Below, in pieces: positions 2,054 through 15,615 of a DNA stretch of 15,756 nucleotides. This stretch comes from a bacterium. Lineage in GTDB: Bacteria > UBP15 > UBA6099 > JAJRTR01. The stretch is taken from positions 1-15,756 of the forward strand of contig JAJRTR010000132.1 of NCBI GenBank assembly GCA_024278215.1, written 5' to 3'. How positions within the stretch are numbered: position 1 is the stretch's first letter; each line of letters opens with the position of its first letter. The position numbers and the translations under genes are program-made. Under the pieces are notes generated by a model. The model saw only the letters and a list, made by a program, of their open reading frames with translations, was not told the DNA's origin and ran no database searches.

Positions 2054-3478
2054 ATGACGCAATCGCCTGAAAACATAAACACCGGACAGGACACGGCCCC
2101 GGGCACGGCCTCCGAAGTCGGGAAACCAATTGTAGAAGTTATCTGCGGGGGGCTGGCGGCGGGTTTTATATTCGGCATGCACTGGCCGGGCGCTTTTCTG
2201 TCAGCGTTTATTCTCGGCGCATTTTTCAGCCACAGGGTTTCGCGCTCGAGAGTGCCGACGTCGCTTTTCTGGTCCGCCTATATCCTATCCTGCATACTGT
2301 TCCATTATTTTGCGGCGACATACTCATACGCATTCATTTATTCCGTCAATCCGAGATACCTCATTTCGGCCGGGGCGGTTTCGGCCATTGCTTTTTTTGC
2401 CTGCGTATCGGGCAGACCGGCGATGGGGCTCTTGATCGGTTTCATTTTTATTTCAGTGGAGATATCAATCGCTAAATATAACCAGCCGATGTTCTTTTTC
2501 GGGTTTGTTGTGTTGCTTATCGCAGACAGGTATTCAGGCCGGTTAAAAACTGTTCCGGCTTCACTGATCGCACTCGCGGTGTTCAACAGCATACTCGCCG
2601 TAGGAGTGCTTTCCATTGGCGGGAGTCACGAATTCCCGATATATCACAAGGTACTTATCGAGAACGACGGACCTCAAACACAGGCAGATGCCGCTATGTT
2701 GAAACGATTCTTTAAGATAGATAAAACTGTTGTGGAGGCGATAGGAAAACAGCGCGAAGCAATCGGGCGCGGTCGACTGGCGGAAGTCGTGGCAGGACCC
2801 GGCGGCGACGAAATAACTGTGCTCATGAAACGGCGTGTTAAGTCTTACATCGCAATTCTCGACAGGGAAACACTTGCATATAAAAGGAAGAGTTTTCAAG
2901 GCGCTGTGGGAGACACGCTTGCGATAAGCGGCGACGGCCGTTTCCTCGCGTCGGTCACAGGTGGTACGCTCGCCCTGCTCGATGAAGAAATACTCGGGTG
3001 GCGAGCAACGCTTGAACTGGGTATAAAGGGCCCTGTGGGTGTCGAGTTCGGCCCGCCGGGCATGCTGTATGTGAGTTCGGCAGTGAGCGGAATGCTGTAT
3101 CTCATAGAATATGACGGGCAGGGCCGAAAAATGAAAGTCGCCAAAACGAGACACGCCGGGCCGGGCATTCTCGGACTCGAATACATCAGCGACAGGGGGA
3201 TCGTCGCGGCAGGTAATTACATCGACGGAATGTTTTATTTTTTCAATGGGAAAACTCTTGACATGGAAGCATCGGTTTTTATCGGTCCTTATGTCAGAAT
3301 GGACAGATTTATTGAAAATGACGGCAAGATATTTTTCGTGCTTAACCGGGGCAGATACGGGACAGGGTTTGTTTATCTCGATGAAATATCGAGAAGGGGC
3401 ATCGAAGCGCAGCAGCCGGTATCTCACATGTTGTCGTTTTTTGTGCTGTCCGCGAAGTTGCTCCGGTCTACGCTGTAG
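2054..3478 (+). CDS. Membrane protein with beta-propeller-like C-terminal half, 474 aa
   Basis: Residues 1-25 are polar. Residues about 26-195 hold roughly six or seven apolar membrane helices. The rest, about 225-460, is a soluble beta-rich region with recurring pieces such as LAISGDGRFLASV, LYVSSAVSGMLYLIEYD and GIVAAGNYIDGMFYFF. These resemble blades of a YncE/SMP-30-type propeller, so membrane anchoring of an extracytoplasmic or cytoplasmic propeller is inferred. No enzyme motif is seen and I do not recognise the family. The ATG at 2054 has no clear Shine-Dalgarno site. The frame is open upstream through the 45-bp repeat, so the true start is uncertain. The C-terminus (SAKLLRSTL) looks atypical. 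The other forward frame there reads through to a stop at 3496-3498 with a more natural strand-like sequence, so a late frameshift is possible. Confidence 0.75.
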   Translation: MTQSPENINTGQDTAPGTASEVGKPIVEVICGGLAAGFIFGMHWPGAFLSAFILGAFFSHRVSRSRVPTSLFWSAYILSCILFHYFAATYSYAFIYSVNPRYLISAGAVSAIAFFACVSGRPAMGLLIGFIFISVEISIAKYNQPMFFFGFVVLLIADRYSGRLKTVPASLIALAVFNSILAVGVLSIGGSHEFPIYHKVLIENDGPQTQADAAMLKRFFKIDKTVVEAIGKQREAIGRGRLAEVVAGPGGDEITVLMKRRVKSYIAILDRETLAYKRKSFQGAVGDTLAISGDGRFLASVTGGTLALLDEEILGWRATLELGIKGPVGVEFGPPGMLYVSSAVSGMLYLIEYDGQGRKMKVAKTRHAGPGILGLEYISDRGIVAAGNYIDGMFYFFNGKTLDMEASVFIGPYVRMDRFIENDGKIFFVLNRGRYGTGFVYLDEISRRGIEAQQPVSHMLSFFVLSAKLLRSTL

Positions 3479-3704: not shown

Positions 3705-5507
3705 TCAGTTGCCTGCGCAACGGATAACCGTGGATAAGGCTGTTTTGAGAACGCTCTCGACCGCGCCGGGCGTTACCGGTTTTGTCAGATAATCCGATGC
3801 ACCGGCTGCGATACATTTCATAACGCTTTCCTTGTTCTTCAGAGCTGAGATCATGATAACCTTAACGTCGGGATCGGCTGCTTTCATCGCCCTCAGCGTG
3901 TCGATTCCGTTCATGTTGACCATATTTATATCACACGTTACAAACGCGGGCCGATGCTTCTTGAACAGCTCGACCCCTGTTTCACCGTCCTGTGCTTCTC
4001 CGACCACAGTGAACCCCATTCTTTTAATGACCAGACTGAGAAATCTCCTTATGTCTTTACAATCGTCGACGATAAGAACGCTCTTGTTTCGATCAGATAT
4101 ATTCTTTATCGGTTTCCCGTCGATGTCGAAATACAGAGGGATGGTTCTTCCGGTCTTCGGGCAGATGCTGATATCGGCGCCGTAGTAGAAGCGGTCTATC
4201 GGAATCATGTCGTCGCCCAGTGATATGAAAGCGCCGGGATAGATGCCGTTGCTGGCTTTGACTTTTGCGAGCGAATTGCAGGATGATTCCCGTTTTGCCT
4301 TTTGCAGTTCAATCTGTTTCGACTTGATACTGTGGATCAGTGCGGCGATTCTCTCAAGTATCGCTTTCCCTTTATTCTCCGCGCTGTCGGAATATGAGTA
4401 TCTTCTGAATTGAACCTGCGCGTCTGCAAGCTCCTTTCGCAATGCCTTGATTTCGCCGATTTCCCTAGTGAACCTGAGCCGGACATCGGGTGGATACCCG
4501 GCCTGTATGATAGTGTTCAGTCTGTTGCTGTTTCCGATGCGGTCGGCTGAAACCCCGCCGCCAGCCACGATGAATCCGCCCTCGATACAGCCGCCGCCGG
4601 TCGTGACTTCCACTTTCCCGTCGGTCGATACTCTGCTGTGCAATATTCTTTCTTCCGCCACGACTCCTTTACCGGCTTTGATAATTGACGCTTCAATGCT
4701 TCTCGAAAAAACATAACCACCGGCTTTCAACATGCCATAGCCGCTGTTGTTGATTTTCTTTTTTACGATAATGTCGCCGCCTGCCGCGATGTCGGCACCT
4801 TCGACCGAACCTTCGACAATTACATCACCGGCGGCTGCGATGTGCGGATTTCCCAGTACGTTGCCTTTTATCACTATTGTTCCGGCGAACTTTGTGTTTC
4901 CCGCCGATCCGTCATAGTCGCCTTCGACGATATAAGCCGGGTCCACGACCAGCACGTTGTCACGAACGGAAGGTATGCCGTCTATCTGTGCCGTGAAGCA
5001 GCCTTCTGCTGTTTCGGCGACATACGCGCCAGCCCTGAGACTGGTCTCTATTCCCCACTCGCCTTTAAATGTTTCGCCGAAAACCGTATATCCGTCCGCC
5101 CCTCTGCCGGCCGGTATTTTCTCGGCGACGACAGAGCCCTTTTTGACAAATGAATAGCATCCGATTTTTGAGAAGTCACGGCGGCAGTCGAATAATTCGT
5201 CGCCGGCGGCATCCGATAGCGGGACATTCTCGAAATGGTATACTATTCCGGCATCGGGGCCTTTCGCGAACGGCCTGCCTGCGGCAACGATGAAACAGTA
5301 ATCGAACAATTCCGGATTATCGAGAAAGTCACGCAGTCTTTCCGGTGATTTTATTCCATGAGTAATTCCCGCCGACTCGAGTTCCCTGATGATTTCTTCA
5401 TATTCTATCTTTGCTCCGGGATGTATCATTAGAAATGCTTTCATCCTGTCCCGGCTGACCCTGACTTCCAGTGTCTTCGTTTCCGGCAATTCCATCTGGC
5501 TGTTCAT
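3705..5507 (-). CDS. DUF342/FapA-family protein fused to a C-terminal receiver domain
   Basis: The start used here is ATG at 5507, giving 600 aa. GAGG sits 9 bases before it; an upstream in-frame ATG at 5522 is only one base from that site. Residues about 10-180 are the DUF342 N-terminal region. About 185-345 are beta-helix-like repeats of the type AAGDVIVEGSVEGADIAAGG. A helical hairpin or coiled coil follows at about 350-410, then a short beta region to 470. A full CheY-like receiver ends the protein (about 475-595), with acidic pair D481/D482, phosphoacceptor D526, S554 and K576. Family members such as Vibrio FapA are linked to polar flagellar assembly. The receiver suggests control by phosphorylation, probably from the kinases nearby (inference). 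No signal peptide or membrane segment is seen. It is divergent from the paralogue starting at 5968. Confidence 0.9.
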   Translation of the reverse strand: MNSQMELPETKTLEVRVSRDRMKAFLMIHPGAKIEYEEIIRELESAGITHGIKSPERLRDFLDNPELFDYCFIVAAGRPFAKGPDAGIVYHFENVPLSDAAGDELFDCRRDFSKIGCYSFVKKGSVVAEKIPAGRGADGYTVFGETFKGEWGIETSLRAGAYVAETAEGCFTAQIDGIPSVRDNVLVVDPAYIVEGDYDGSAGNTKFAGTIVIKGNVLGNPHIAAAGDVIVEGSVEGADIAAGGDIIVKKKINNSGYGMLKAGGYVFSRSIEASIIKAGKGVVAEERILHSRVSTDGKVEVTTGGGCIEGGFIVAGGGVSADRIGNSNRLNTIIQAGYPPDVRLRFTREIGEIKALRKELADAQVQFRRYSYSDSAENKGKAILERIAALIHSIKSKQIELQKAKRESSCNSLAKVKASNGIYPGAFISLGDDMIPIDRFYYGADISICPKTGRTIPLYFDIDGKPIKNISDRNKSVLIVDDCKDIRRFLSLVIKRMGFTVVGEAQDGETGVELFKKHRPAFVTCDINMVNMNGIDTLRAMKAADPDVKVIMISALKNKESVMKCIAAGASDYLTKPVTPGAVESVLKTALSTVIRCAGN

Positions 5508-5967
5508 ATTCGCATACCTCACTGAATGTATTTACCATGACCGGTTATAGATGGATGTTCTCACTACTATGACGACCGGCATTCGCTGAATATGACACTC
5601 TGTTCAACAAGATGTATACCAGGTCTTTGGAAAACTGCGTCTTGCACACAAACAAACATTGTTCGTATTTCAAAAACGCCATATTTCCGCCCGTAAATCT
5701 TAATAACATAAGCAAAAAGAAATTTATCGGGGACGATGCTTACGGCTCGAGGTCCGGGGAAAGTGAAGCCGGAAATTAACAATGTAATCAACATTTTACA
5801 TATCCGGCAGGCGGAAAATGCGCCGTAAAATAAATATCGCTTTAAGAAAAGGTTTTTTTGTTTGCGAAACTTATCTGGCACGATTGTTGATTACCAGTTG
5901 TCCGGTAGAAACCAACTGACTGTGAAAAAGAAATCGGAATCGAGCGAATCAGGAAAGAGGTAGGACC
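5508..5967. other. 460-bp divergent spacer between two DUF342 genes
   Basis: The spacer is AT-rich and should hold the promoters of both genes. The one recognisable site is a sigma-54-type element at 5876-5891 facing the plus-strand operon. Small GC hairpins such as TCCGG/CCGGA occur around 5751-5780. An open minus-strand frame at 5567-5881 starts with GTG, has no ribosome binding site and resembles nothing I know. I found no clear promoter for the minus-strand gene. Confidence 0.6.
5876..5891 (+). promoter_or_regulatory. Sigma-54-like -24/-12 promoter (imperfect)
   Basis: TGGCACG, four bases, then TTGAT fits the sigma-54 consensus TGGCACG-N4-TTGCW with A in place of the -12 C. GG at 5877-5878 and GA at 5889-5890 have the required 10-base spacing. 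It is in the intergenic spacer, correctly oriented, 76 bp before the ATG at 5968. The missing C is a real weakness, since the -12 GC is well conserved. Confidence 0.45.
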
Positions 5968-7476
5968 ATGGCAGCTAATGCAAAAGAAATAGAGAAAGGC
6001 AGTCGGCATACGTTTATAGATCGTAAGATCAGGGAACTCACACTTGCATTCAATGCCGATAATGTGACCGGGAGATACGACATCAGGATATCCGACGACG
6101 GGATGGAGGCATGGCTGATAACGGAACCGCCGCGTAGCGGCAGGATGGAGTTCGATCAGGATATCGTTAACGCATTAATAAAGGAGAACGGTATTGAATA
6201 CGGACTGATGGAAAACATCGAGGAGATAGTGCCGCGCAATATGAAAGCCGAAACACTACTCGCCAGGGGGAGGTTGCCAGTCGCGGGTGAAGACGCGAAA
6301 CTACGGCTGCTGTACCAGGAATCGGACGATGACGAACACGGGACACCCGATGATCGCGACAGAGTCGATCACAGGGAGGTCAGGAAATTTTCGATAGTGA
6401 GGGCGGGTGAGCCTATAGTAATGAAAATCCCGCCGGTGGAGCCGGTTACGGGAATAACCGTCACAGGCAAAAGGATTCCCGCGCGGAAGGGGAAAGACAT
6501 TTCTCTGATAGCAGGCCGTAATGTCGAGTTATCGGAAAATGGTAACTACCTTATATCCACAGCGGAAGGAATGGTAGTGCGCAATAACAACATGTTCGAT
6601 GTAGTGAGCGTGTACGTGGTGGATGGAGATGTTGATTATTCAGTAGGCAATATAAGTTTTGGGGGCTGCGTGAGGATCAAAGGGAATGTGTTGCCGGGCT
6701 TCAGGATTTCAGCGACGGAGAGCATAGAAGTCGAAGGAACAGTCGAGAGAGCCATCCTCGAGGCGGGCAAAGACATCAGGCTGCACAAGAGTTGCTATGG
6801 TGACGATAATTGCAGCATAAACGCCGGTGAAGACATCTATGCCAGATCGTTCGAGAACGCGCGGGTGCGGGCCGGGGGTAAAGTGTGCGCGGCTCAATAT
6901 ATAGTAAACAGCGACATAACCGCCGGAGGAGATGTCGAAGTTCTGCATCCGTCTAAAGGCAGGATTTCCGGCGGACATATCCGGGCCGGCGGCGATGTGG
7001 TCGCCGGGAATCTCGGCTCGGCCTCTTATGCAAACACGCTTGTCGAGATCGGCCTGCCCGATTTCACCAGACAGGACCGCAACGACAAGTTCAACATGAT
7101 CAATTTCTATCTTAAGAATCTCAAGTCGATAAATGCTCAAATAAGGAAATATACGCACGTGAAAAAAATACGTGGGCTCGACCCCGCGCGGGAGAATAAG
7201 CTCGCGACACTCAGGGAGAAAGCGGCACGGCACAAGAATTCACTGGATGAACTTGTCAGCCGTTACGGTATGCCCGAAATACTGGTGAAGACCCCGACAT
7301 TTTCCAACGAAGTCAGAGTCCGCGGCACTGTGTACTCCGGCGTTCGTATCCGGTCGAACGAATCGATTCTGATCTTCAGCGAAGACTACGAAGAGGTAGT
7401 TGTGAAAAAGCTGGAGGAAGAACTCGTTATGACGTCGTTTGACGAAGAAGAAAAAGTCATACCGATTGCCGTGTAA
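5968..7476 (+). CDS. DUF342/FapA-family protein, 502 aa
   Basis: ATG at 5968 follows GAGG (5957-5960) by 7 bases. Residues about 15-115 form the N-terminal domain, broken by an acidic, Asp-rich linker at about 117-136 that the neighbouring paralogue lacks. A conserved middle region follows, with EPVTGITVTGKRIPARKGKD near 160-180. Beta-helix-like repeats run at about 215-365 (VRIKGNVLPGFRI, VEGTVERAILEAGKDI, IRAGGDVVAGNL). A helical pair rich in Lys and Arg lies at about 370-430, and a final beta segment ends near 480. There is no receiver, unlike the divergent paralogue. It is the first gene of a four-gene operon and lies 38 bp before the hybrid kinase. A scaffold or localisation role in the envelope or at the pole is inferred from the family, not shown. 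Confidence 0.9.
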   Translation: MAANAKEIEKGSRHTFIDRKIRELTLAFNADNVTGRYDIRISDDGMEAWLITEPPRSGRMEFDQDIVNALIKENGIEYGLMENIEEIVPRNMKAETLLARGRLPVAGEDAKLRLLYQESDDDEHGTPDDRDRVDHREVRKFSIVRAGEPIVMKIPPVEPVTGITVTGKRIPARKGKDISLIAGRNVELSENGNYLISTAEGMVVRNNNMFDVVSVYVVDGDVDYSVGNISFGGCVRIKGNVLPGFRISATESIEVEGTVERAILEAGKDIRLHKSCYGDDNCSINAGEDIYARSFENARVRAGGKVCAAQYIVNSDITAGGDVEVLHPSKGRISGGHIRAGGDVVAGNLGSASYANTLVEIGLPDFTRQDRNDKFNMINFYLKNLKSINAQIRKYTHVKKIRGLDPARENKLATLREKAARHKNSLDELVSRYGMPEILVKTPTFSNEVRVRGTVYSGVRIRSNESILIFSEDYEEVVVKKLEEELVMTSFDEEEKVIPIAV

Positions 7477-7514
7477 AGCGTGAATGCAAAAAAGGATATT
7501 GGAGACGACTTGAA

Positions 7515-10500
7515 ATGGGAACGGTGAAAAGAGCGATAAAGTATATATTGCCGATTGTCGTATTGTGGACATTACCGGTATTGTTTTTTTGTTTTCAGTT
7601 TTCGCAGCAATTCAATGCTCATGTTCACCGAAACCTTTTTGCGCATGCGCTGGTGTGGCTTCTGGGCGTAGCCGCGATATTTACGATAGGAATGTGCATC
7701 AGTTCGGCGATGGAAAAACGGGAATACGCCGAAAAAGCATTGAAAGATAATCATGACAAACTCGCGGAAATGGTTAAGGATAGAACGCTTGAACTTAAAC
7801 ATAAAAATGAGGAACTTACGAGAGAAAACGAGTTGCAGGAGCAGATAAGACAGGAACTCGAATCGATCAACCGCAGATACAGCACCCTTGTGAACAATCT
7901 CAATACGGGCGTATTCCGCAACACGCCGGGGCTGCACGGCAGATTCCTGATGGCGAATAACGCGCTCGCGAAAATGCACGGTTTCGATTCGCCCGAAGAA
8001 GTAATCGGCAAAGAAGTTTCAATGCTTTACGCCAACCCTCTGCATCGTGAAACAGTGTCGAATGAACTTCTTGCCAACGGTTGTATCAAGGACAAGGAGG
8101 TGCTGCTCGTTCGGCGTGACGGGTCGATATTCTGGGCGTCTGTGACGGCAAGCGCCGTACATGATGAGGATGGTAATGTGCGCTATTTCGACGGCATGAT
8201 AGAGGATATTTCAGAGAAAAAGAAAGCCGCCGAGCAGATTACGATATACGAGAAATTCCTGGAAGCTTCAGGGCAGGGGCTGGGCATGGCGTCGCTGGAA
8301 GGGATAAGACTCTATGCGAATCCGAAGCTCTGTGAACTTACCGGATTCGCGAAAGAGGAGCTCGAGGGGCAGGTCTTCCTTGATAAATATCCCGAAGTAA
8401 TGCGCGAAAAGATGGAGAACGAAGTGCTGCCGAATGTGATGGCAGCCGGTCAGTGGTCGGGTGAGATGCAGATCAAAAACAGGAACGGGACACGGATACC
8501 GACGATAGAGAACTATTTCCTTATAAAAGACGAGAACGGCAGGCCGCTGTGTATTGCGAATGTTGTTACAGACATCACGGAACGCAAAAGGATCGAACGG
8601 GAACTTGCAGAGTCGTCGGAGAGGTTCAGATCCATAACCGAATCCGCCAACGACGGTATTATCGTCATGGACTCAGACGGCGGCGTATCTTTCTGGAATC
8701 CGGCGGCGGAGAAGATATTCGGATATACACAGGATGAGGTGATGCGACAGGAACTCCACAAACTCATCGCCCCGGAGAGATACAGGGAAGCATACCGGAA
8801 AGGCCTGCGCATGTTTAGGAAGACCGGGGAAGGCACGGCGGTCGGTAAAACTCTCGAGCTTGCCGGAAGAAGAAAAAACGGCGAAGAATTTCCCATGGAA
8901 CTGTCTCTTTCCGTTTTACATGTAGATGGTCGCTATGGCGCTGTCGGCATAATCCGGGACATAACAGATCGCAAGCAGATGGAAGAGACCAACAGCCATC
9001 TCGCCTCGATTGTCGAGAACTCCCAGGATGCGATCATTGGAAAAGACCTGTATTGCAATGTTGTAAGCTGGAACAAGGCCGCGGAGAGAATGTTCGGATA
9101 TACGGCGGAAGAGTCGATCGGTCGCCACATTTCATTTCTGACACAAGAAGAATTCCATCAGCAATGCGAAGATTTGATCAACAGGGTGAAAAGCGGCGAT
9201 GATGTGGAAAATTTCGAGATTGAGTTTATTAAAAAAGATGGTTCATACATCGACGTCGCGATAAAACTTTCACCGATCAAAGATGGAAATGGAGAGATCA
9301 AAGGCATCTCGATGATTGCCCGCGACATATCGGAACGCAAGAAGATTGAAAGAATGAAGAATGATTTTATCTCGACAGTGTCTCACGAACTGAGGACACC
9401 GCTGACATCGCTCCGCGGCTCGCTCGGGCTGCTTGCAGGTGGTGTCATGGGCGACTTGCCCGGCGAGGCGTCGGAAATGATCGAGATCGCCGGTAATAAT
9501 ACCGAAAGGCTTGTCAGGCTGATAAACGATATCCTCGATCTACAGAAAATGGAAAACGGCAGGATCGAGATAAAGATCGAAGATATTTCTCTTCTTGAAA
9601 TAGTGGAACGCAGTATCGGAGAGATGGCTTCCCTTGCTGTCGAGAAAGGCGTGTCCATCGTTCATAATGTGGCGGATTGTAAGATCAGGGGCGATTTCGA
9701 CAGGTTGCTTCAGGTCACGGATAATCTGCTCTCCAACGCGGTCAAGTTCTCCGGCGAGGGTTCCGAAGTAAAAGTAAGCGCGTCGAGGGACAAAGGCATG
9801 GTGACGGTCTCCGTAACAGATCATGGACCGGGCATTCCGGAATCGTTCCGGAATCGGATATTCCAGAAGTTCCAGCAGGCCGACGCCTCCAGCCGCAAGG
9901 AGAAAGGCGGCACCGGGCTCGGACTGGCAATCTGCAAAACGATTGTAGAAAACCTGGGCGGACAAATATGGTTCGAGTCGGAAGCCGGCAAAGGCACCAC
10001 TTTCAGTTTTACCGTAAAATGTGCGGATGACGCGCCGGCAGAACCGGTAATGTACGCCGGTATCGAAGAAGTCGGCGGCATCCTTGCCGGAAATGGATTC
10101 CGGGATACGTCGCGTGGAAAAGTAATTCTTGTGATCGACGATGATGAAGGTGTCCAGAGATTACTGAAGAAAATCTTCGAGGACGAAGGCTATCAGATTG
10201 TTTTTGCTATGGACAGCATCAACGGCATAGCGGCGGCGAACTCTAAAAAACCCGATGTCATAATACTGGATGTATGTCTTCCGGATGCGTCCGGTTTCGA
10301 TGTCCTCAAGACCCTGAAAGACGAAAGGGCGACGCGGGATATACCTGTAATAATGTTGAGCGGCGTAGGCCCGGACTACTATTCGAAGGTATCGTCGCCG
10401 CCCGTTTTCGACTGGCTGACAAAACCGGTGGATATAAACCGTCTTATGGACTGCATCAAGTCGGTCACCCGCCGCCCCGGCCCTTCAAGGGTGCTTGTTG

Positions 10501-10874
10501 TGGACGACGACCCGGGCCTGTTGAAGCTGATGAAGGTCTCGCTGGAGTGCAGGGGCGTGGATGTGGAAACGGCTGAAAACGGTGCCGAAGGATTCAGGAA
10601 AACGCGCGAATTCGAACCCGACCTGATTATCCTCGATGTATTGATGCCGGGAACAGACGGCTTTTTCCTCACCGAGCAGATGCGCAGAAACCACGCCTAT
10701 TTCAGGATTCCTGTTGTTGTCTACACCGCAAAGGACCTCACACCCGCTGAAAAGAAAAGGCTAAGCGGTTATATGACGGAATTCTTCACGAAACTCGATA
10801 TAGATGAAGCTGAGTTCTCAGGGAAGATACTGAAAATGATGGACGGCCTGCTGGAACCGACAGCCGTAATATGA
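7515..10874 (+). CDS. Membrane PAS4 hybrid histidine kinase with two receivers, 1119 aa
   Basis: ATG at 7515 follows GGAG (7501-7504). Two membrane helices (about 8-29 and 41-63) enclose a loop of only about a dozen residues, so sensing is probably by the cytosolic part. A coiled coil (67-122) leads into four PAS domains ending near 234, 357, 486 and 608, each closed by a DIS/DIT-[ED]-[RK]-K motif. HisKA has the phospho-accepting H624 in SHELRTP. HATPase_c (about 727-840) shows an N-box (LLSNAVKF), G1 (DHGPGIP) and G2 (GGTGLGLAIC). Two receivers follow: about 868-985 with D919, and about 991-1110 with D1041. No LOV cysteine or heme motif is evident, so the PAS ligand is unknown. The second receiver's YTAKDLTPAEKKRL segment is of a type common in large hybrid kinases. 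An HPt partner is encoded two genes downstream. Confidence 0.95.
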   Translation: MGTVKRAIKYILPIVVLWTLPVLFFCFQFSQQFNAHVHRNLFAHALVWLLGVAAIFTIGMCISSAMEKREYAEKALKDNHDKLAEMVKDRTLELKHKNEELTRENELQEQIRQELESINRRYSTLVNNLNTGVFRNTPGLHGRFLMANNALAKMHGFDSPEEVIGKEVSMLYANPLHRETVSNELLANGCIKDKEVLLVRRDGSIFWASVTASAVHDEDGNVRYFDGMIEDISEKKKAAEQITIYEKFLEASGQGLGMASLEGIRLYANPKLCELTGFAKEELEGQVFLDKYPEVMREKMENEVLPNVMAAGQWSGEMQIKNRNGTRIPTIENYFLIKDENGRPLCIANVVTDITERKRIERELAESSERFRSITESANDGIIVMDSDGGVSFWNPAAEKIFGYTQDEVMRQELHKLIAPERYREAYRKGLRMFRKTGEGTAVGKTLELAGRRKNGEEFPMELSLSVLHVDGRYGAVGIIRDITDRKQMEETNSHLASIVENSQDAIIGKDLYCNVVSWNKAAERMFGYTAEESIGRHISFLTQEEFHQQCEDLINRVKSGDDVENFEIEFIKKDGSYIDVAIKLSPIKDGNGEIKGISMIARDISERKKIERMKNDFISTVSHELRTPLTSLRGSLGLLAGGVMGDLPGEASEMIEIAGNNTERLVRLINDILDLQKMENGRIEIKIEDISLLEIVERSIGEMASLAVEKGVSIVHNVADCKIRGDFDRLLQVTDNLLSNAVKFSGEGSEVKVSASRDKGMVTVSVTDHGPGIPESFRNRIFQKFQQADASSRKEKGGTGLGLAICKTIVENLGGQIWFESEAGKGTTFSFTVKCADDAPAEPVMYAGIEEVGGILAGNGFRDTSRGKVILVIDDDEGVQRLLKKIFEDEGYQIVFAMDSINGIAAANSKKPDVIILDVCLPDASGFDVLKTLKDERATRDIPVIMLSGVGPDYYSKVSSPPVFDWLTKPVDINRLMDCIKSVTRRPGPSRVLVVDDDPGLLKLMKVSLECRGVDVETAENGAEGFRKTREFEPDLIILDVLMPGTDGFFLTEQMRRNHAYFRIPVVVYTAKDLTPAEKKRLSGYMTEFFTKLDIDEAEFSGKILKMMDGLLEPTAVI

Positions 10875-10891
10875 AAAGGAGATAAGCGGAT

Positions 10892-11269
10892 ATGGAAAAC
10901 TTGAACATTTTATTGATTGACGACGAAAAGGACATCAGGCGTGTCGCCGACCTGAGCCTGAGCAGGCTGGGCGGGCACCGGGTCACTGCTGTCTCTTCCG
11001 GTGAGGAAGGAATCAGAACGGCGGTCGATATAAAACCGGATATTATCCTGCTGGATGTGATGATGCCGGTGATGGACGGGGTGCAGGTGTTCAGAGTGCT
11101 GAAAAACAGTAACACTACAAAAGATATTCCCATCGTATTTATGACGGCAAAGGTGCAGCAGGCGGAAAAAGCCGAATATATCGACATGGGGGCAATCGGC
11201 GTAATAGATAAGCCGTTCAACCCGATGGAACTCCACAGGCAGGTCGCGGATTTGCTGAAAGCTGCATAA
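10892..11269 (+). CDS. Single-domain CheY-like response regulator, 125 aa
   Basis: ATG at 10892 follows AGGAG (10878-10882), 17 bp after the kinase stop. The protein is one receiver and nothing more. D10 and D11 form the acidic pocket, D55 is the phosphoacceptor, T85 is the switch residue and K107 (DKPF) completes the active site. Proteins of this form act as phosphate shuttles or by binding a partner, as CheY and Spo0F do. Its place between a hybrid kinase and a receiver-HPt protein suggests a step or a sink in the same relay (inference). No DNA-binding or enzymatic domain is present. Confidence 0.95.
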   Translation: MENLNILLIDDEKDIRRVADLSLSRLGGHRVTAVSSGEEGIRTAVDIKPDIILLDVMMPVMDGVQVFRVLKNSNTTKDIPIVFMTAKVQQAEKAEYIDMGAIGVIDKPFNPMELHRQVADLLKAA

Positions 11270-11297
11270 ATTACTTCGAGAAAGTGAGGGCACGATA

Positions 11298-12074
11298 ATG
11301 AAAAACTGCGAATATAAAGTACTTGTTATAGATGACGATCCGGATATGCACAGGCTGTTGAGAGCGCCCCTGGAAGGAAAGGGTTTTAAATATCTGTTCG
11401 CGCTGGATGCGGAAGAAGGAAAAACTCTCGCCGTGAACTACCGGCCGGACCTGTTCATCATCGACGGCATCCTGCCGGATATGACCGGGGTCGATCTCTG
11501 TTCGTTCTTCAGGGCAAACAGCATCCACAAAAATAAGCCGATAATCTTCCTGTCCGCAGTTTTCAGGGAAGTCGTATATTTCAGGAATCTGATAGTCGAT
11601 CTGAAAGTCGACATGGTGCTGCACAAACCGCAGAACCCCAGTCTTATCGCAAAATATGCCGCCGAACTCATCGGCCTTGAAAAACGCGACCTCTATGAAG
11701 ACAAATGCTCGTTCGACTACGCGCTCGGTGAAATACGCGAGCTGTATATCGAATCGTTTCTGGAGCAGATGGCGACCATTGAAAAAATATTGAAGCTGAT
11801 TAAGAGCGGAAGCTGCAATCCAAAATCACTCGGTGATTTATACCATATAGTCCACAGGATTCACGGTGCCGCAGGCAGCTACGGTTTCACCAAAGTGAGT
11901 TTCATCGCCGGGATGTGGGAGCAGTCTATCAAAGACATTCTTGAATTGCGTAAGATACTGACAAGTGATGAAATCGCATCCATGGAAGAAAACTACGAAG
12001 CGCTGAAACTTGGTTTCCAGATGCCGGATCGTACCGGCGAATCGGAGACCTGTTTCGATCCCGAATGCCTGTAA
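11298..12074 (+). CDS. Receiver-HPt phosphotransfer protein, 258 aa
   Basis: ATG at 11298 follows GAGGG (11286-11290). Residues about 5-125 are a receiver with acidic residues D12-D14, phosphoacceptor D56, the FLSA switch Ser, and Lys in LHKP. After a short linker, about 145-235 forms a helical HPt domain. Its motif is HRIHGAAGSYGF, with H186 in the phosphoacceptor position and H189 where most HPt domains have Lys. HPt proteins pass phosphate between receivers and have no kinase activity. Covalent linkage to a receiver is less common than HPt fused to a kinase. It ends the four-gene operon. The likely path is from the kinase receivers through H186 to D55 of the upstream gene or to other receivers nearby. 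Confidence 0.9.
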   Translation: MKNCEYKVLVIDDDPDMHRLLRAPLEGKGFKYLFALDAEEGKTLAVNYRPDLFIIDGILPDMTGVDLCSFFRANSIHKNKPIIFLSAVFREVVYFRNLIVDLKVDMVLHKPQNPSLIAKYAAELIGLEKRDLYEDKCSFDYALGEIRELYIESFLEQMATIEKILKLIKSGSCNPKSLGDLYHIVHRIHGAAGSYGFTKVSFIAGMWEQSIKDILELRKILTSDEIASMEENYEALKLGFQMPDRTGESETCFDPECL

Positions 12075-12170
12075 ATGAATGTCTTACGGCTGCGATTCAA
12101 GTGCCGTGTCGACTTTGTGCTGATACATGAGGGGTAGTACTCCGTACAACTTGAAGTTACACATATATGG

Positions 12171-12283
12171 TTATCGTGTCCCAGGGTCCAACCTTAGGAA
12201 CGATAAACTCTGTGTGCCGTGCTCGAACCGCTTTTGTTTGGGCACGAAAATGCGACCTTTTTGGTTCCGGCTATGTCGGGTTA
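12171..12283 (+). repeat. Structured dispersed repeat, copy 2 (RNA-like)
   Basis: The core 12210-12283 is 68/74 identical to the reverse complement of 1588-1661. It forms GTGCTCGAAC/GTTTGGGCAC (12219-12228 and 12236-12245) and CCGGC-TAT-GTCGG (12267-12279). Two of its differences from copy 1 lie in stems and turn Watson-Crick pairs into G-T pairs, which only keeps the fold if the plus strand is the RNA. Upstream, TTATCGT (12171-12177) pairs with ACGATAA (12200-12206). That arm differs in sequence from copy 1 but still pairs, which looks like selection on structure. Confidence 0.6.
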
Positions 12284-12292
12284 ATCCCATAC

Positions 12293-12311
12293 CCCGCATA
12301 TTTCACCAATG
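12293..12311. repeat. Hairpin repeat with ATTTCACCA loop, copy 2
   Basis: These 19 bases are the exact reverse complement of 232-250. The stem CCGCAT/ATGAGG (12294-12299 and 12309-12314) has one mismatch, while the 9-nt loop is unchanged. It directly follows the structured repeat, as the copy at 228-250 may do in decayed form. Confidence 0.6.
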
Positions 12312-12382
12312 AGGTTACGTCTTTTCATCATCGACACGGCAACAGGTTCAACATGGTATTTCAATCAATAATGCTATTCGCT

Positions 12383-13033
12383 TCAGAAGTTATCTATGAG
12401 ACTGTACCTGATGGCGAATTTTACGAGGTCTGCAATGTTGTCGAGGCCCAACTTTTTAAAGATGTTTTTCCTGTGATATTTTATTGTACTCACACTGAGG
12501 CAAAGTTGTTCTGCGATCTCTCTGGAATTCCTGCCCTGTGCCAGCTTCTTCAGTACCGATATTTCCCTGTCGGTGAGTTTGCCGAGAGGGTTGCCACCTG
12601 CTTCCCATTTCTTTCCGGCGATTATCTTCTGCTGAATTGAAGGGGTCACATAGATTCCGCCTTTATGCACCTGGTTGATAGCATCCGGGAGGTCTGCCGG
12701 GCTGATACCTTTATATATGTAGCCTTTTACCCCCGACTGCAAAGCCCGCACCGCGAATTCCTCGTTGTCGTACATAGTGAGCATAATGATCTTGATTGCC
12801 GGGAAGGCTTTTATAATCTGTCCGCTGAGGTCCATCCCGTCGATGTCCGGCAGGTCGATGTCGAGCAGGACAATGTCGGGCTGCGCCTCGCGGCACATTT
12901 TCATGACATCGCGGCCTTTGCCGGTATTGCCGGCGATTTCTATCCCGGGATCGGTTTCGAGCAGCCTGCATAATCCGCCCCTGAACAGGTCGTGATCGTC
13001 GACTATAATAATCTTTACAGGCATATCAACCAT
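12383..13033 (-). CDS. NarL/FixJ-family response regulator, 216 aa
   Basis: The start is ATG at 13033, abutting the upstream gene's stop codon (TGA then ATG), which suggests translational coupling. ATG at 13024 (Met4) is a possible alternative, and neither has a strong Shine-Dalgarno site. Residues about 5-122 are a receiver with D12/D13, phosphoacceptor D58, T86 and K108. Residues about 150-212 form a LuxR-type helix-turn-helix (LTDREISVLKKLAQG, then REIAEQLCLSVSTIKYHRKNI). The length is normal for the family. Its cognate kinase is almost certainly the HisKA_3 protein encoded just upstream. It is the only DNA-binding response regulator in the window. Its targets are unknown. Confidence 0.95.
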   Translation of the reverse strand: MVDMPVKIIIVDDHDLFRGGLCRLLETDPGIEIAGNTGKGRDVMKMCREAQPDIVLLDIDLPDIDGMDLSGQIIKAFPAIKIIMLTMYDNEEFAVRALQSGVKGYIYKGISPADLPDAINQVHKGGIYVTPSIQQKIIAGKKWEAGGNPLGKLTDREISVLKKLAQGRNSREIAEQLCLSVSTIKYHRKNIFKKLGLDNIADLVKFAIRYSLIDNF

Positions 13034-14224
13034 TCATTTCGGGATGTTCATTCCGATTTTTGTTCCCTTGCCGATCATGGTATCAATATTTAATGTCCCG
13101 CCGCATATAGTGGCCCGCTGCGCCATACCGGGCAGTCCGACACCCGGCCCGGACTCTGCCTCCATGCAGCTGAATCCTTTACCATCGTCGGCAACAAGCA
13201 GCTCTATGCAATCTTCGCTGGTTTTTAAGGTGATACTCAGTCTTTTCGCTTTCGAATGCCGCGCCGCGTTTGTCATTGCCTCCTGAAGCACCCTGTATAT
13301 GTTGAGAGAAACCTCCGGTTCGATATCCGTTTTTCCGATTTCATCAATGTCCAGGTCAATGTGCAGCGGTTCGCGGTTCCTGAACTCTTCCACGTATGTT
13401 CGTATTGCTGAAGACAGGCCGAGCTTATGCAGAAGCGCGGGATGCAGCCCCCTGTATATCCTGGACACTCCCCCGGACACATTTTCAACTATTCGCACCA
13501 GATCATCAATCGTTCCGGCAGCTTCCGGCGTTATCTTTCGCAGACGCTCAAGTTCTACAAGGATGTATGACATTTGTTGCCCGAATTCGTCGTGTAGCTC
13601 ACGCGCAATCGCCGATCTTTCCTTTTCCTGCAATTTTATGAGACTGTTGGTAAGTTTATTAAGCTGTCTCTCGTTCCTTTTCAATTGCAACTCGTATCGC
13701 TTACGCTCGAGGTTCTCTTTTTTCAGCAGTTCATTCGCTTTCGACAGTTCACTGGTTCTGAACTCGACCATTTCCTCCAGATGCTCACGGTATATTCGCA
13801 GTTCTATCCCCGCTTGTTTTCGCGCCAGCACTTCGTTTACTGTATTCAAAATCGAGTTCAGAGCAAGCGGTTTGACTTCATAAGCCACCACCTGCGGCTG
13901 CTTCACCGCATCTATTGCCGACTCCAGTGACGCATATCCTGTGAATATTATGCATTCCAGGTCAGGATTGATCTCCAGCAGTTCCGCAAAAAGCGCGTCT
14001 CCTTTTATATCGGGAAGCATTATGTCGATAAACGCAAGATCAAAGTGCCGATCTTTGCATAGTTTCAAGGCCCGTTTGCCGTCCTGCGCCGATTCGACAT
14101 CAAACCCTTCAGCCATAAAAAACCGTTCAAGAAGGTTACAGATTCCCGCTTCATCATCAACAACAAGCAGGCGATACGGAGATTTGCAGTTTTCCGGAAT
14201 CCGTCCGACTTCAATATTCGACAT
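13034..14224 (-). CDS. Cytosolic receiver-HisKA_3 histidine kinase, 396 aa
   Basis: The start used is ATG at 14224; a TTG at 14269 in the same frame would add 15 residues and is closer to the promoter. Neither has a strong ribosome binding site. Residues about 17-130 are a receiver with D23/D24, phosphoacceptor D67, a Thr switch (FTGY) and Lys in EVKPL. A long coiled coil (about 137-205) leads to a HisKA_3 domain with H211 in ARELHDEFGQ. A HATPase_c domain follows, with N-box LQEAMTNAARHS, G1 ADDGKGF and G2 GVGLPGM. There is no membrane segment, so the input is probably phosphorylation of its own receiver. This differs from NarX-type kinases that sense through a periplasmic domain. It is cotranscribed with its NarL-type regulator. 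Receiving phosphate from the nearby HPt protein is a plausible inference. Confidence 0.9.
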   Translation of the reverse strand: MSNIEVGRIPENCKSPYRLLVVDDEAGICNLLERFFMAEGFDVESAQDGKRALKLCKDRHFDLAFIDIMLPDIKGDALFAELLEINPDLECIIFTGYASLESAIDAVKQPQVVAYEVKPLALNSILNTVNEVLARKQAGIELRIYREHLEEMVEFRTSELSKANELLKKENLERKRYELQLKRNERQLNKLTNSLIKLQEKERSAIARELHDEFGQQMSYILVELERLRKITPEAAGTIDDLVRIVENVSGGVSRIYRGLHPALLHKLGLSSAIRTYVEEFRNREPLHIDLDIDEIGKTDIEPEVSLNIYRVLQEAMTNAARHSKAKRLSITLKTSEDCIELLVADDGKGFSCMEAESGPGVGLPGMAQRATICGGTLNIDTMIGKGTKIGMNIPK

Positions 14225-14532: not shown

Positions 14533-14547
14533 TGGCACAATACTTGC
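14533..14547 (+). promoter_or_regulatory. Sigma-54 -24/-12 promoter
   Basis: TGGCAC (14533-14538), five bases, then TTGC (14544-14547) matches the sigma-54 consensus core closely, with GG at 14534-14535 and GC at 14546-14547 ten bases apart. Transcription should start near 14559, about 25 nt before the ATG at 14584, with GGAG at 14574-14577 in the leader. Activation would need an AAA+ enhancer-binding protein, and none is encoded in this window. Confidence 0.75.
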
Positions 14548-14583
14548 CCTTTCTATCGGCAACTACAGCAAATGGAGTCCAGA

Positions 14584-15159
14584 ATGCAGAAGACAATGAG
14601 CGCGACAATACACAAAAGCGGAACTGTCGGCAATAGAACATGCAGCTATGCGAATCTCCTGCGAAGGATTCTTTTCGCGTCGGTCGCCGCGCTGATGATT
14701 TTCGCAACAAGTGCTGTTGCTTCGGACACGGAAAATGTCGATGTCAGCATTGAGATACCGACGATATTCGTACTTGGATGGTCGGTACCCGGCACATCGA
14801 TTGACCTGACCGGAGCCAATGCCGTGACAGCCGCCGAATTCACCGCCGGATACAAAGACGGTATTTCGGGAGGCACATTGTCATTAACGGCAAATGATGT
14901 CTTCGACCTGACTGTGAAAGCAGTCTCCGATACCTTTCTCGGCGGCAGCGGAACAAAACCTGTATCTGAAATGATGGTCCGCATCGGCGGAGGCAGCTAT
15001 ATCCCCTTGAGCGGGACTTCCGAGGTCACCCTGATAAACGGCAATCCGCCCACATCCGGCGACAACAGAGACCTGGCCTATCGAATCGACCTTCTCGCGG
15101 ATGATACGCCGGGCGTCTACCAGACCACGCTCATATATACGATAAAGGCGCATATCTGA
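14584..15159 (+). CDS. Secreted beta-rich protein of unknown function, 191 aa
   Basis: I chose ATG at 14584 because GGAG (14574-14577) lies 6 bases before it; an in-frame ATG at 14572 has no such site. Residues 1-46 look like a Sec signal peptide with a long basic n-region, an apolar core at 29-42 and a likely cut after AVA (44-46). The mature part, about 145 residues, is Gly-, Thr- and Ser-rich and predicted beta. It ends with TPGVYQTTLIYTIKAHI, like the last strand of immunoglobulin-like surface or pilus-type subunits such as the spore coat U type. This resemblance is weak and not an assignment. The only Cys (residue 20) is in the signal region. It sits behind a sigma-54 promoter and 78 bp before a STAS gene. 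Confidence 0.85.
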   Translation: MQKTMSATIHKSGTVGNRTCSYANLLRRILFASVAALMIFATSAVASDTENVDVSIEIPTIFVLGWSVPGTSIDLTGANAVTAAEFTAGYKDGISGGTLSLTANDVFDLTVKAVSDTFLGGSGTKPVSEMMVRIGGGSYIPLSGTSEVTLINGNPPTSGDNRDLAYRIDLLADDTPGVYQTTLIYTIKAHI

Positions 15160-15237: not shown

Positions 15238-15615
15238 ATGGAAACTTACAAGATGTCATCGGAGAGCGACTTCATAATAGTAAAACCGGAAGGTGAAATA
15301 ACGTCGCGAAGTTATCCCGAATTCGAACAGAAACTGGGCAGGTTGCTGTGTGAAGATGCAAAACTTCTGTTTGACATGAGTGCCGTAACGTTCATAAACA
15401 GTGTCGGGATAGTGTTCCTCCTGAGGATAGCCGGGATGGCTGAAAACAGTTGCGCTTATTTCACAATGTACAACCTGGCGGGCAATATCGAAAGAATCAT
15501 GCGCAGGCTGCAACTTCAGTCCGTTTTGAATGTAGCCGCGGATGCCGAAGCAGCTTTTATAAACATCGGTAATGCGATGGAAAGAGAACTGGCGGGCTGC
15601 TCGATTGCCGCATGA
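15238..15615 (+). CDS. STAS-domain protein, anti-sigma factor antagonist type, 125 aa
   Basis: ATG at 15238 follows GGAGG (15222-15226) with an 11-base spacer. The whole protein is one STAS domain: an N-terminal strand (FIIVKPEGEIT), then FDMSAVTFINSVGIVFLLR, and a C-terminal helical part (NIERIMRRLQLQSVLNV). In SpoIIAA and RsbV the phosphorylated Ser lies in a DSxG motif. Here it is N54-S55-V56-G57, so the Ser is kept and the preceding Asp is Asn. Such proteins bind anti-sigma kinases or act in partner-switching. No RsbW-type kinase or phosphatase is encoded in the window, so the partner is unknown. It probably shares the sigma-54 transcript of the secreted protein upstream. Confidence 0.9.
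   Translation: METYKMSSESDFIIVKPEGEITSRSYPEFEQKLGRLLCEDAKLLFDMSAVTFINSVGIVFLLRIAGMAENSCAYFTMYNLAGNIERIMRRLQLQSVLNVAADAEAAFINIGNAMERELAGCSIAA

Follow-up and report, generated by a model that had tools for sequence, protein, structure and literature searches.

The output domain at the end of most response regulators either binds DNA or acts as an enzyme. The systems closest to the one discussed here are, apart from the C-terminal domain of MinC, which is treated below, phosphorelays with hybrid histidine kinases of the ArcB, BarA and TorS type or with a separate histidine phosphotransfer (HPt) protein, chemotaxis operons with CheY and CheX, and flagellar assembly protein A (FapA) of Vibrio. The latter protein is localized at the cell pole, is needed for flagella and binds EIIA-Glc, but only when EIIA-Glc is unphosphorylated (PMC6877527). 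According to titles cited in the same paper, glucose delocalizes Vibrio FapA from the flagellated pole and HubP recruits it. In many bacteria the FapA gene occurs together with modules for FlhF/FlhG and sigma28 (PMC11607428). Here, we consider a cluster of signaling genes (positions 3705-14224) in a 15,756-nucleotide stretch of DNA from a bacterium of the little-known candidate phylum UBP15, referred to as the window, in which one gene (3705-5522, reverse strand) encodes FapA fused to a CheY-type receiver (REC) domain, denoted FapA-REC.

FapA-REC has the same two FapA domains as the Vibrio protein, where the dependence on EIIA-Glc provides a precedent for control of FapA by phosphorylation state. 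The difference is that the phospho-sensor in the window is part of the FapA protein, in the form of a fused receiver, and that this protein is encoded outside flagellar operons, in a phylum with many FapA paralogs per genome. The combination of a kinase linked to a receiver with an HPt domain, including all residues of a His-Asp-His-Asp sequence, is shared with the relays of the ArcB, BarA and TorS type, but here the kinase carries two receivers, the HPt protein carries a receiver of its own, and one candidate terminal receiver is found on FapA. With chemotaxis the system shares the CheY-type receiver, and one class of FapA-REC genes is located between CheB and CheX; in contrast to CheY, which diffuses to FliM, the receiver is attached to a scaffold, and no che genes are found near the window copy.

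The window comprises one complete 15.8-kb contig of a 4.55-Mb metagenome-assembled genome (MAG), which is alone in its family among the genomes available. It was compared to six relatives of the same order, the closest genomes in the collection and the only ones of that order (G001-G006): USMO_maxbin.112 (G001), DeMMO6_30 (G002), ADurb.Bin236, UBA6099, RA.bin91 and USCA_metabat.19_sub. Domains were assigned from Pfam matches over the cut-off, and the predicted phosphorylation sites were inspected directly in aligned sequences. The family named DUF342 in a preliminary description of this DNA has since been renamed in Pfam to FapA and FapA_N (PF03961/PF20250).

FapA-REC, a family with a proposed scaffold output

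In the protein encoded at 3705-5522, FapA_N and the FapA beta-solenoid were both identified over the Pfam cut-off (92 and 138 bits), followed by the receiver. The AlphaFold model (mean pLDDT 84) displays FapA_N, the beta-solenoid, a long helical hairpin, a small beta region and the receiver; the modeled receiver is closest to CheY, with a Z-score of 23.3 to T. maritima CheY (4qyw). The phosphorylatable Asp is D531 in the 605-residue open reading frame that starts at GTG, or D526, the number given previously, if the ATG at codon 6 is used as the start. The best reading of these domains, the tree and the active-site alignment is that the protein would be a response regulator with a FapA beta-solenoid scaffold, rather than a DNA-binding or enzymatic domain, as its output. 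The output domain is FapA, whose action is putative and which may or may not belong to an effector class already described, i.e., enzymes or domains that bind DNA, RNA or protein. Literature searches with DUF342, FapA and related terms, which covered open-licence papers, yielded no paper on a FapA-receiver fusion.

The C-terminal fusion is carried by all seven UBP15 genomes. A maximum-likelihood analysis of 50 FapA core sequences united all 14 full-length proteins with FapA-REC architecture in one clade (support 100/99), which has two classes; the window protein branches as the sister of class B (98/91). The same two classes are found in the receiver tree, where the FapA-REC receivers group with those of E. 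coli CheY and CheB, apart from the receivers of the relay encoded next to the window gene. Every member, including the fast-evolving window copy, retains the acidic pair, the Asp, the Thr/Ser and the Lys. Some receivers work without phosphate, and the receiver on FapA could in principle be an unphosphorylated docking or dimerization module; given this conservation throughout the family, such a role is very unlikely.

Class A genes are found in chemotaxis operons with the order CheA/R/D/Y/B-[FapA-REC]-CheX, where CheX is immediately downstream; the host copy is found at G000:C175. In UBA6099, USMO_maxbin.112 and USCA_metabat.19_sub, a gene for a PilT-type ATPase is located near the class A gene. 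Loci with FapA-REC in or beside chemotaxis operons, usually right before CheX, are L095, L101, L043, L044, L050, L059, L060 and L107, and one may argue that this version, in a chemotaxis operon, is the more remarkable one. In class B operons, FapA-REC is followed after 3-20 bp by a stand-alone HPt gene (G000:C185 in the host, RA.bin91, DeMMO6_30 and ADurb.Bin236) and, where the contig extends far enough, a third gene that encodes a GAF-HD_5 (HD-GYP-type) protein. FapA-REC followed by HPt, or by an uncalled small gene in that position, was observed in L096, L055, L106, L100, L042, L049 and L123. Judged from gene content, the class B operon ties FapA to phosphotransfer and probably also to c-di-GMP. 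Because relatives of FapA-REC reside beside an HPt gene or in chemotaxis operons, the proposal in the preliminary description that DUF342 is an output of phosphotransfer is well founded at the level of this UBP15-wide clade; the part that is not supported beyond the host genome is that of a dedicated relay.

These data are best explained by a UBP15-specific family that arose from fusion of a CheY-type receiver onto FapA, where the window protein is a divergent third member. Three further FapA architectures were observed. A 909-residue paralog (L097:7216-9945) has a degenerate, receiver-like N-terminal stretch, which was not counted as a receiver because it is below the Pfam cut-off. A UBP15 clade with duplicated FapA_N is represented at L105, L121, L048, L054, L098 and L128, and two-solenoid FapA proteins are found in other lineages at L206, L250, L262, L265 and L269.

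Outside UBP15 the two parts are encoded separately. A contig search with a single window FapA as the query gave no matches, while a search with the FapA-REC alignment gave 70 loci, 56 of which were from other lineages; a C-terminal FapA-REC fusion was found in none of these 56. Neither was the fusion found among other-family genomes in a 386-genome sample, where only separate neighboring genes were seen, in G511, with a receiver gene 12 bp after FapA. In one FapA subfamily from a Firmicutes order, each of the nine loci examined has a receiver gene no more than 1.5 kb away (in 8/9 on the same strand and about 8-724 bp downstream), as compared to none of the 25 other FapA loci in the same survey; the nine loci are related and hence do not represent nine independent events. 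FlhA is present in all nine of these genomes, as it is in the host. Loci with a separate receiver beside FapA, in Firmicutes and G511, are L185, L186, L189, L195, L200, L208-L217 and L252; at L200 the receiver reads into a 992-residue pyridine-nucleotide-disulphide oxidoreductase/NIR_SIR protein. When two genes are separate in one lineage and fused in another, this usually indicates that their products work together. Comparative gene content thus lends good support to receiver control of FapA, i.e., through the FapA-REC operons in UBP15 together with the adjacency of FapA and receiver genes outside the phylum.

The relay locus and its relatives

Divergently from FapA-REC, an operon on the forward strand starts with a second FapA gene (5968-7476; FapA_N and FapA at 128 and 195 bits), which lacks a receiver. 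It is followed after 38 bp on the same strand by a gene for a hybrid histidine kinase (7515-10874) with the architecture 4xPAS-HisKA-HATPase-REC-REC (H624; D919 in the first and D1041 in the second receiver), which is probably membrane-anchored as judged from its hydrophobic N-terminus. Further downstream on this strand are a single-domain receiver (10892-11269; D55) and a REC-HPt protein (11298-12074; H186 within HRIHGAAG). On the reverse strand, a NarL/GacA-type response regulator (REC-GerE; 12383-13033) and its partner kinase (REC-HisKA_3-HATPase; 13034-14224) were identified by Pfam and NCBIfam. All of these architectures and residues had been proposed previously, as had the DUF342 protein at the head of the main operon, and all were confirmed from Pfam matches and inspection of the residues. 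The full set required for a multistep phosphorelay, i.e., His kinase, receiver, HPt and terminal receiver, is present with intact residues, and the count of seven receivers, each of which has the acidic pair, the Asp and a Lys, is correct. The host genome (4.55 Mb) encodes 95 receivers that exceed the Pfam cut-off, and the density of seven in the 10.5-kb cluster is far above chance, although two-component genes commonly cluster. Eleven FapA-family genes are found in the host genome, two of which are in the window.

To the right of the cluster, on the forward strand, are genes for a small protein with a signal peptide (14572-15159; no Pfam family over the cut-off) and a STAS-domain protein of the anti-sigma-factor-antagonist type (15238-15615), which is kept in the relay locus of a sister family. 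In that family a small protein (L113:1843-2280) beside the STAS gene (2652-3065) resembles the 14572-15159 product by eye, while BLAST gave no match. To the left of the cluster, two sizeable proteins (499-1365 and 2054-3478) have no Pfam family over the cut-off.

In the sister family, orthologs of the kinase (about 38% identity), the single receiver (56-58%), the REC-HPt protein (about 40%, H186 conserved) and the STAS protein (41-46%) are found in one locus in ADurb.Bin236, UBA6099 and USCA_metabat.19_sub. The first gene of these loci, where it is complete, encodes a 515-residue non-FapA protein, and the relay genes are followed by another hybrid kinase and an NtrC-type regulator. The nearest relative of the window FapA at 5968-7476 is found in DeMMO6_30 (L116:9535-10974; 41% identity, support 100/99), where it adjoins an NtrC-type regulator. 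A relay dedicated to FapA as a general rule, as suggested in the preliminary description, was rejected on the basis of this synteny, which reveals a conserved unit without FapA; also USMO_maxbin.112 has FapA-REC without REC-HPt. In other words, of the gene order described at the outset, the relay unit is conserved and FapA-REC recurs as a signaling output, but the link between FapA and the relay is not conserved in these genomes of the same order, the closest ones available. The locus is best explained as an older, FapA-independent and possibly sigma54-associated relay, which here would have gained a leading FapA gene and a divergent FapA-REC gene. The junction between the FapA genes and the relay is seen in one contig of one MAG and is absent from the relatives, which could reflect mis-assembly, but the FapA and kinase genes lie 38 bp apart on one strand and the G+C content is even over the whole window, which makes this hardly credible.

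We favor, as an evenly balanced judgment, a model where FapA-REC is a scaffold-output response regulator, fed here most plausibly by the neighboring relay, and where phosphorylation would alter the assembly or partner of FapA. The phosphoryl group would be transferred from H624 to D919/D1041, perhaps D55, then to H186, which is the nearest HPt donor, and from there presumably to D531. The fused receiver would in this way bring FapA directly under two-component control; phosphorylation of D531 would most likely change the assembly of the FapA part or its choice of partner, and could thereby decide if, and at which site, a machine of the cell pole or envelope, such as the flagellum or a type IV pilus, is built or used. 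The model draws on what is directly observed, namely the domains, the catalytic residues, the single FapA-REC clade, the HPt and chemotaxis operons, and the adjacency of FapA and receiver genes outside UBP15.

Several observations weigh against this model. FapA is absent from all three relay loci of the sister family (L112-L114), USMO_maxbin.112 (97% complete) has no REC-HPt ortholog and yet harbors two FapA-REC genes, one of each class, and the exact window cluster is known from a single MAG contig. Furthermore, the window receiver is CheY-like and separate in the tree from those of the relay, and the window protein sits on a long branch (1.51), which implies that its partner or function may have shifted. 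FapA-REC might instead be phosphorylated by CheA or the HPt of a paralogous FapA-REC operon elsewhere, the adjacency to the relay being incidental. The CheY-type receiver, the paralogs accompanied by CheA and CheX or by their own HPt, and the presence of FapA-REC without this relay in USMO_maxbin.112 are consistent with such a donor. On the other hand, neither a che gene nor a stand-alone HPt is found on the window contig, where the HPt of the relay is the nearest to FapA-REC, and the long branch fits a change of partner; a donor elsewhere is considered unlikely.

The relay output could also be transcription, through sigma54 and an NtrC-type regulator or through the local NarL-type protein, such that FapA and the STAS and secreted-protein genes are targets or bystanders and FapA-REC is served elsewhere. 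In the window, sigma54-like -24/-12 elements with one mismatch each are located on the forward strand 77 bp ahead of the FapA operon (TGGCACGATTGTTGAT, 5876-5891; chance matches of this kind occur) and 24 bp ahead of the secreted-protein gene at 14572 (TGGCACAATACTTGCC, 14533-14548, from a motif scan). At up to one mismatch, elements were also found in L113 (2566-2581 and 15525-15540), L114 (3772-3787 and 16708-16723) and L116 (7688-7703). Most are a short distance ahead of a gene, either in the relay locus or in the FapA locus of DeMMO6_30: they precede relay-locus genes in two families, including the STAS orthologs and the operon of the sister family, and the FapA-adjacent NtrC-type gene in a third. 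None was found at this threshold in the FapA-REC loci L095, L096, L100, L101 and L106 or in the flagellar FapA locus L092. The orthologous relay loci with an NtrC-type regulator but no FapA, as well as the REC-GerE protein of the window itself, point in the same direction. However, the total counts of sigma54-like elements, at two mismatches, are not above shuffle expectation, i.e., the sigma54 link is a lead only, no NtrC-type regulator is encoded on the window contig, and transcription as the output leaves the divergent FapA-REC gene next to an HPt-ending relay unexplained. We regard this alternative as somewhat unlikely. As regards the earlier suggestion of an output other than mainly DNA binding, outputs through DNA binding are also on offer at the locus, namely the REC-GerE protein in the window and the NtrC-type regulators of the relatives, along with the sigma54-like sites. 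The relay may feed FapA-REC in the host species.

A distant likeness to MinC

A sequence search revealed no solved structure of FapA. Weak sequence matches to the C-terminal domain of MinC were found in 23 of the 43 proteins scanned (best 3.9e-6; below the Pfam cut-off where a score was shown), and a profile search identified three MinC structures at E 0.006-0.1. Structural alignment of the FapA solenoid (models m93bf739e5d8c and m5ee5c4af399b) with this domain gave Z-scores of 9.0-9.1 over 101-109 residues at 19-20% identity, where FapA is the longer protein, with an additional N-terminal domain and a helical hairpin. A Foldseek search with the model of FapA yielded no match at E ≤ 0.001, so that the likeness in fold rests on the structural alignment (Z about 9) and the weak sequence matches. 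No paper containing both FapA and MinC was found in the open-licence literature.

MinC acts through MinD, and a MinD-like gene is found beside the flagellar FapA gene of the host, which together lead to the proposal that a MinD-like partner is gated. The flagellar cluster (G000:C79) encodes an ordinary FapA paralog with FlhA, FlhF, the MinD-like protein and sigma28, unlike the surroundings of the two window copies, where there are no flagellar genes; the host also encodes several type IV pilus/secretion ATPases. The weak likeness, taken as an analogy, suggests a MinD-like partner (FlhG) for FapA. In a more specific and distinctly tentative extension, which we consider rather unlikely as a whole, FapA-REC would be a phospho-switched, MinC-like spatial regulator: phosphorylation of the fused CheY-type receiver by CheA or HPt would gate binding of the solenoid to a MinD-family ATPase of the FlhG type, such that chemosensory and phosphorelay inputs would directly determine where flagella or pili are placed or how many there are.

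Implications for FapA and UBP15

The central finding is a clade of response regulators ending in a FapA scaffold, which recurs in two conserved signaling operons and is mirrored by gene neighbors in Firmicutes. FapA is widespread, often linked to the flagellum and poorly understood, and FapA-REC offers a concrete route into how it works: phospho-mimic mutants of the built-in switch could reveal the role of FapA, and the remote resemblance to MinC also points to a possible partner, namely the MinD-like FlhG, whose gene is near that of flagellar FapA. The data suggest that, beyond switching genes, UBP15 cells control a structural or positional protein directly by signaling.

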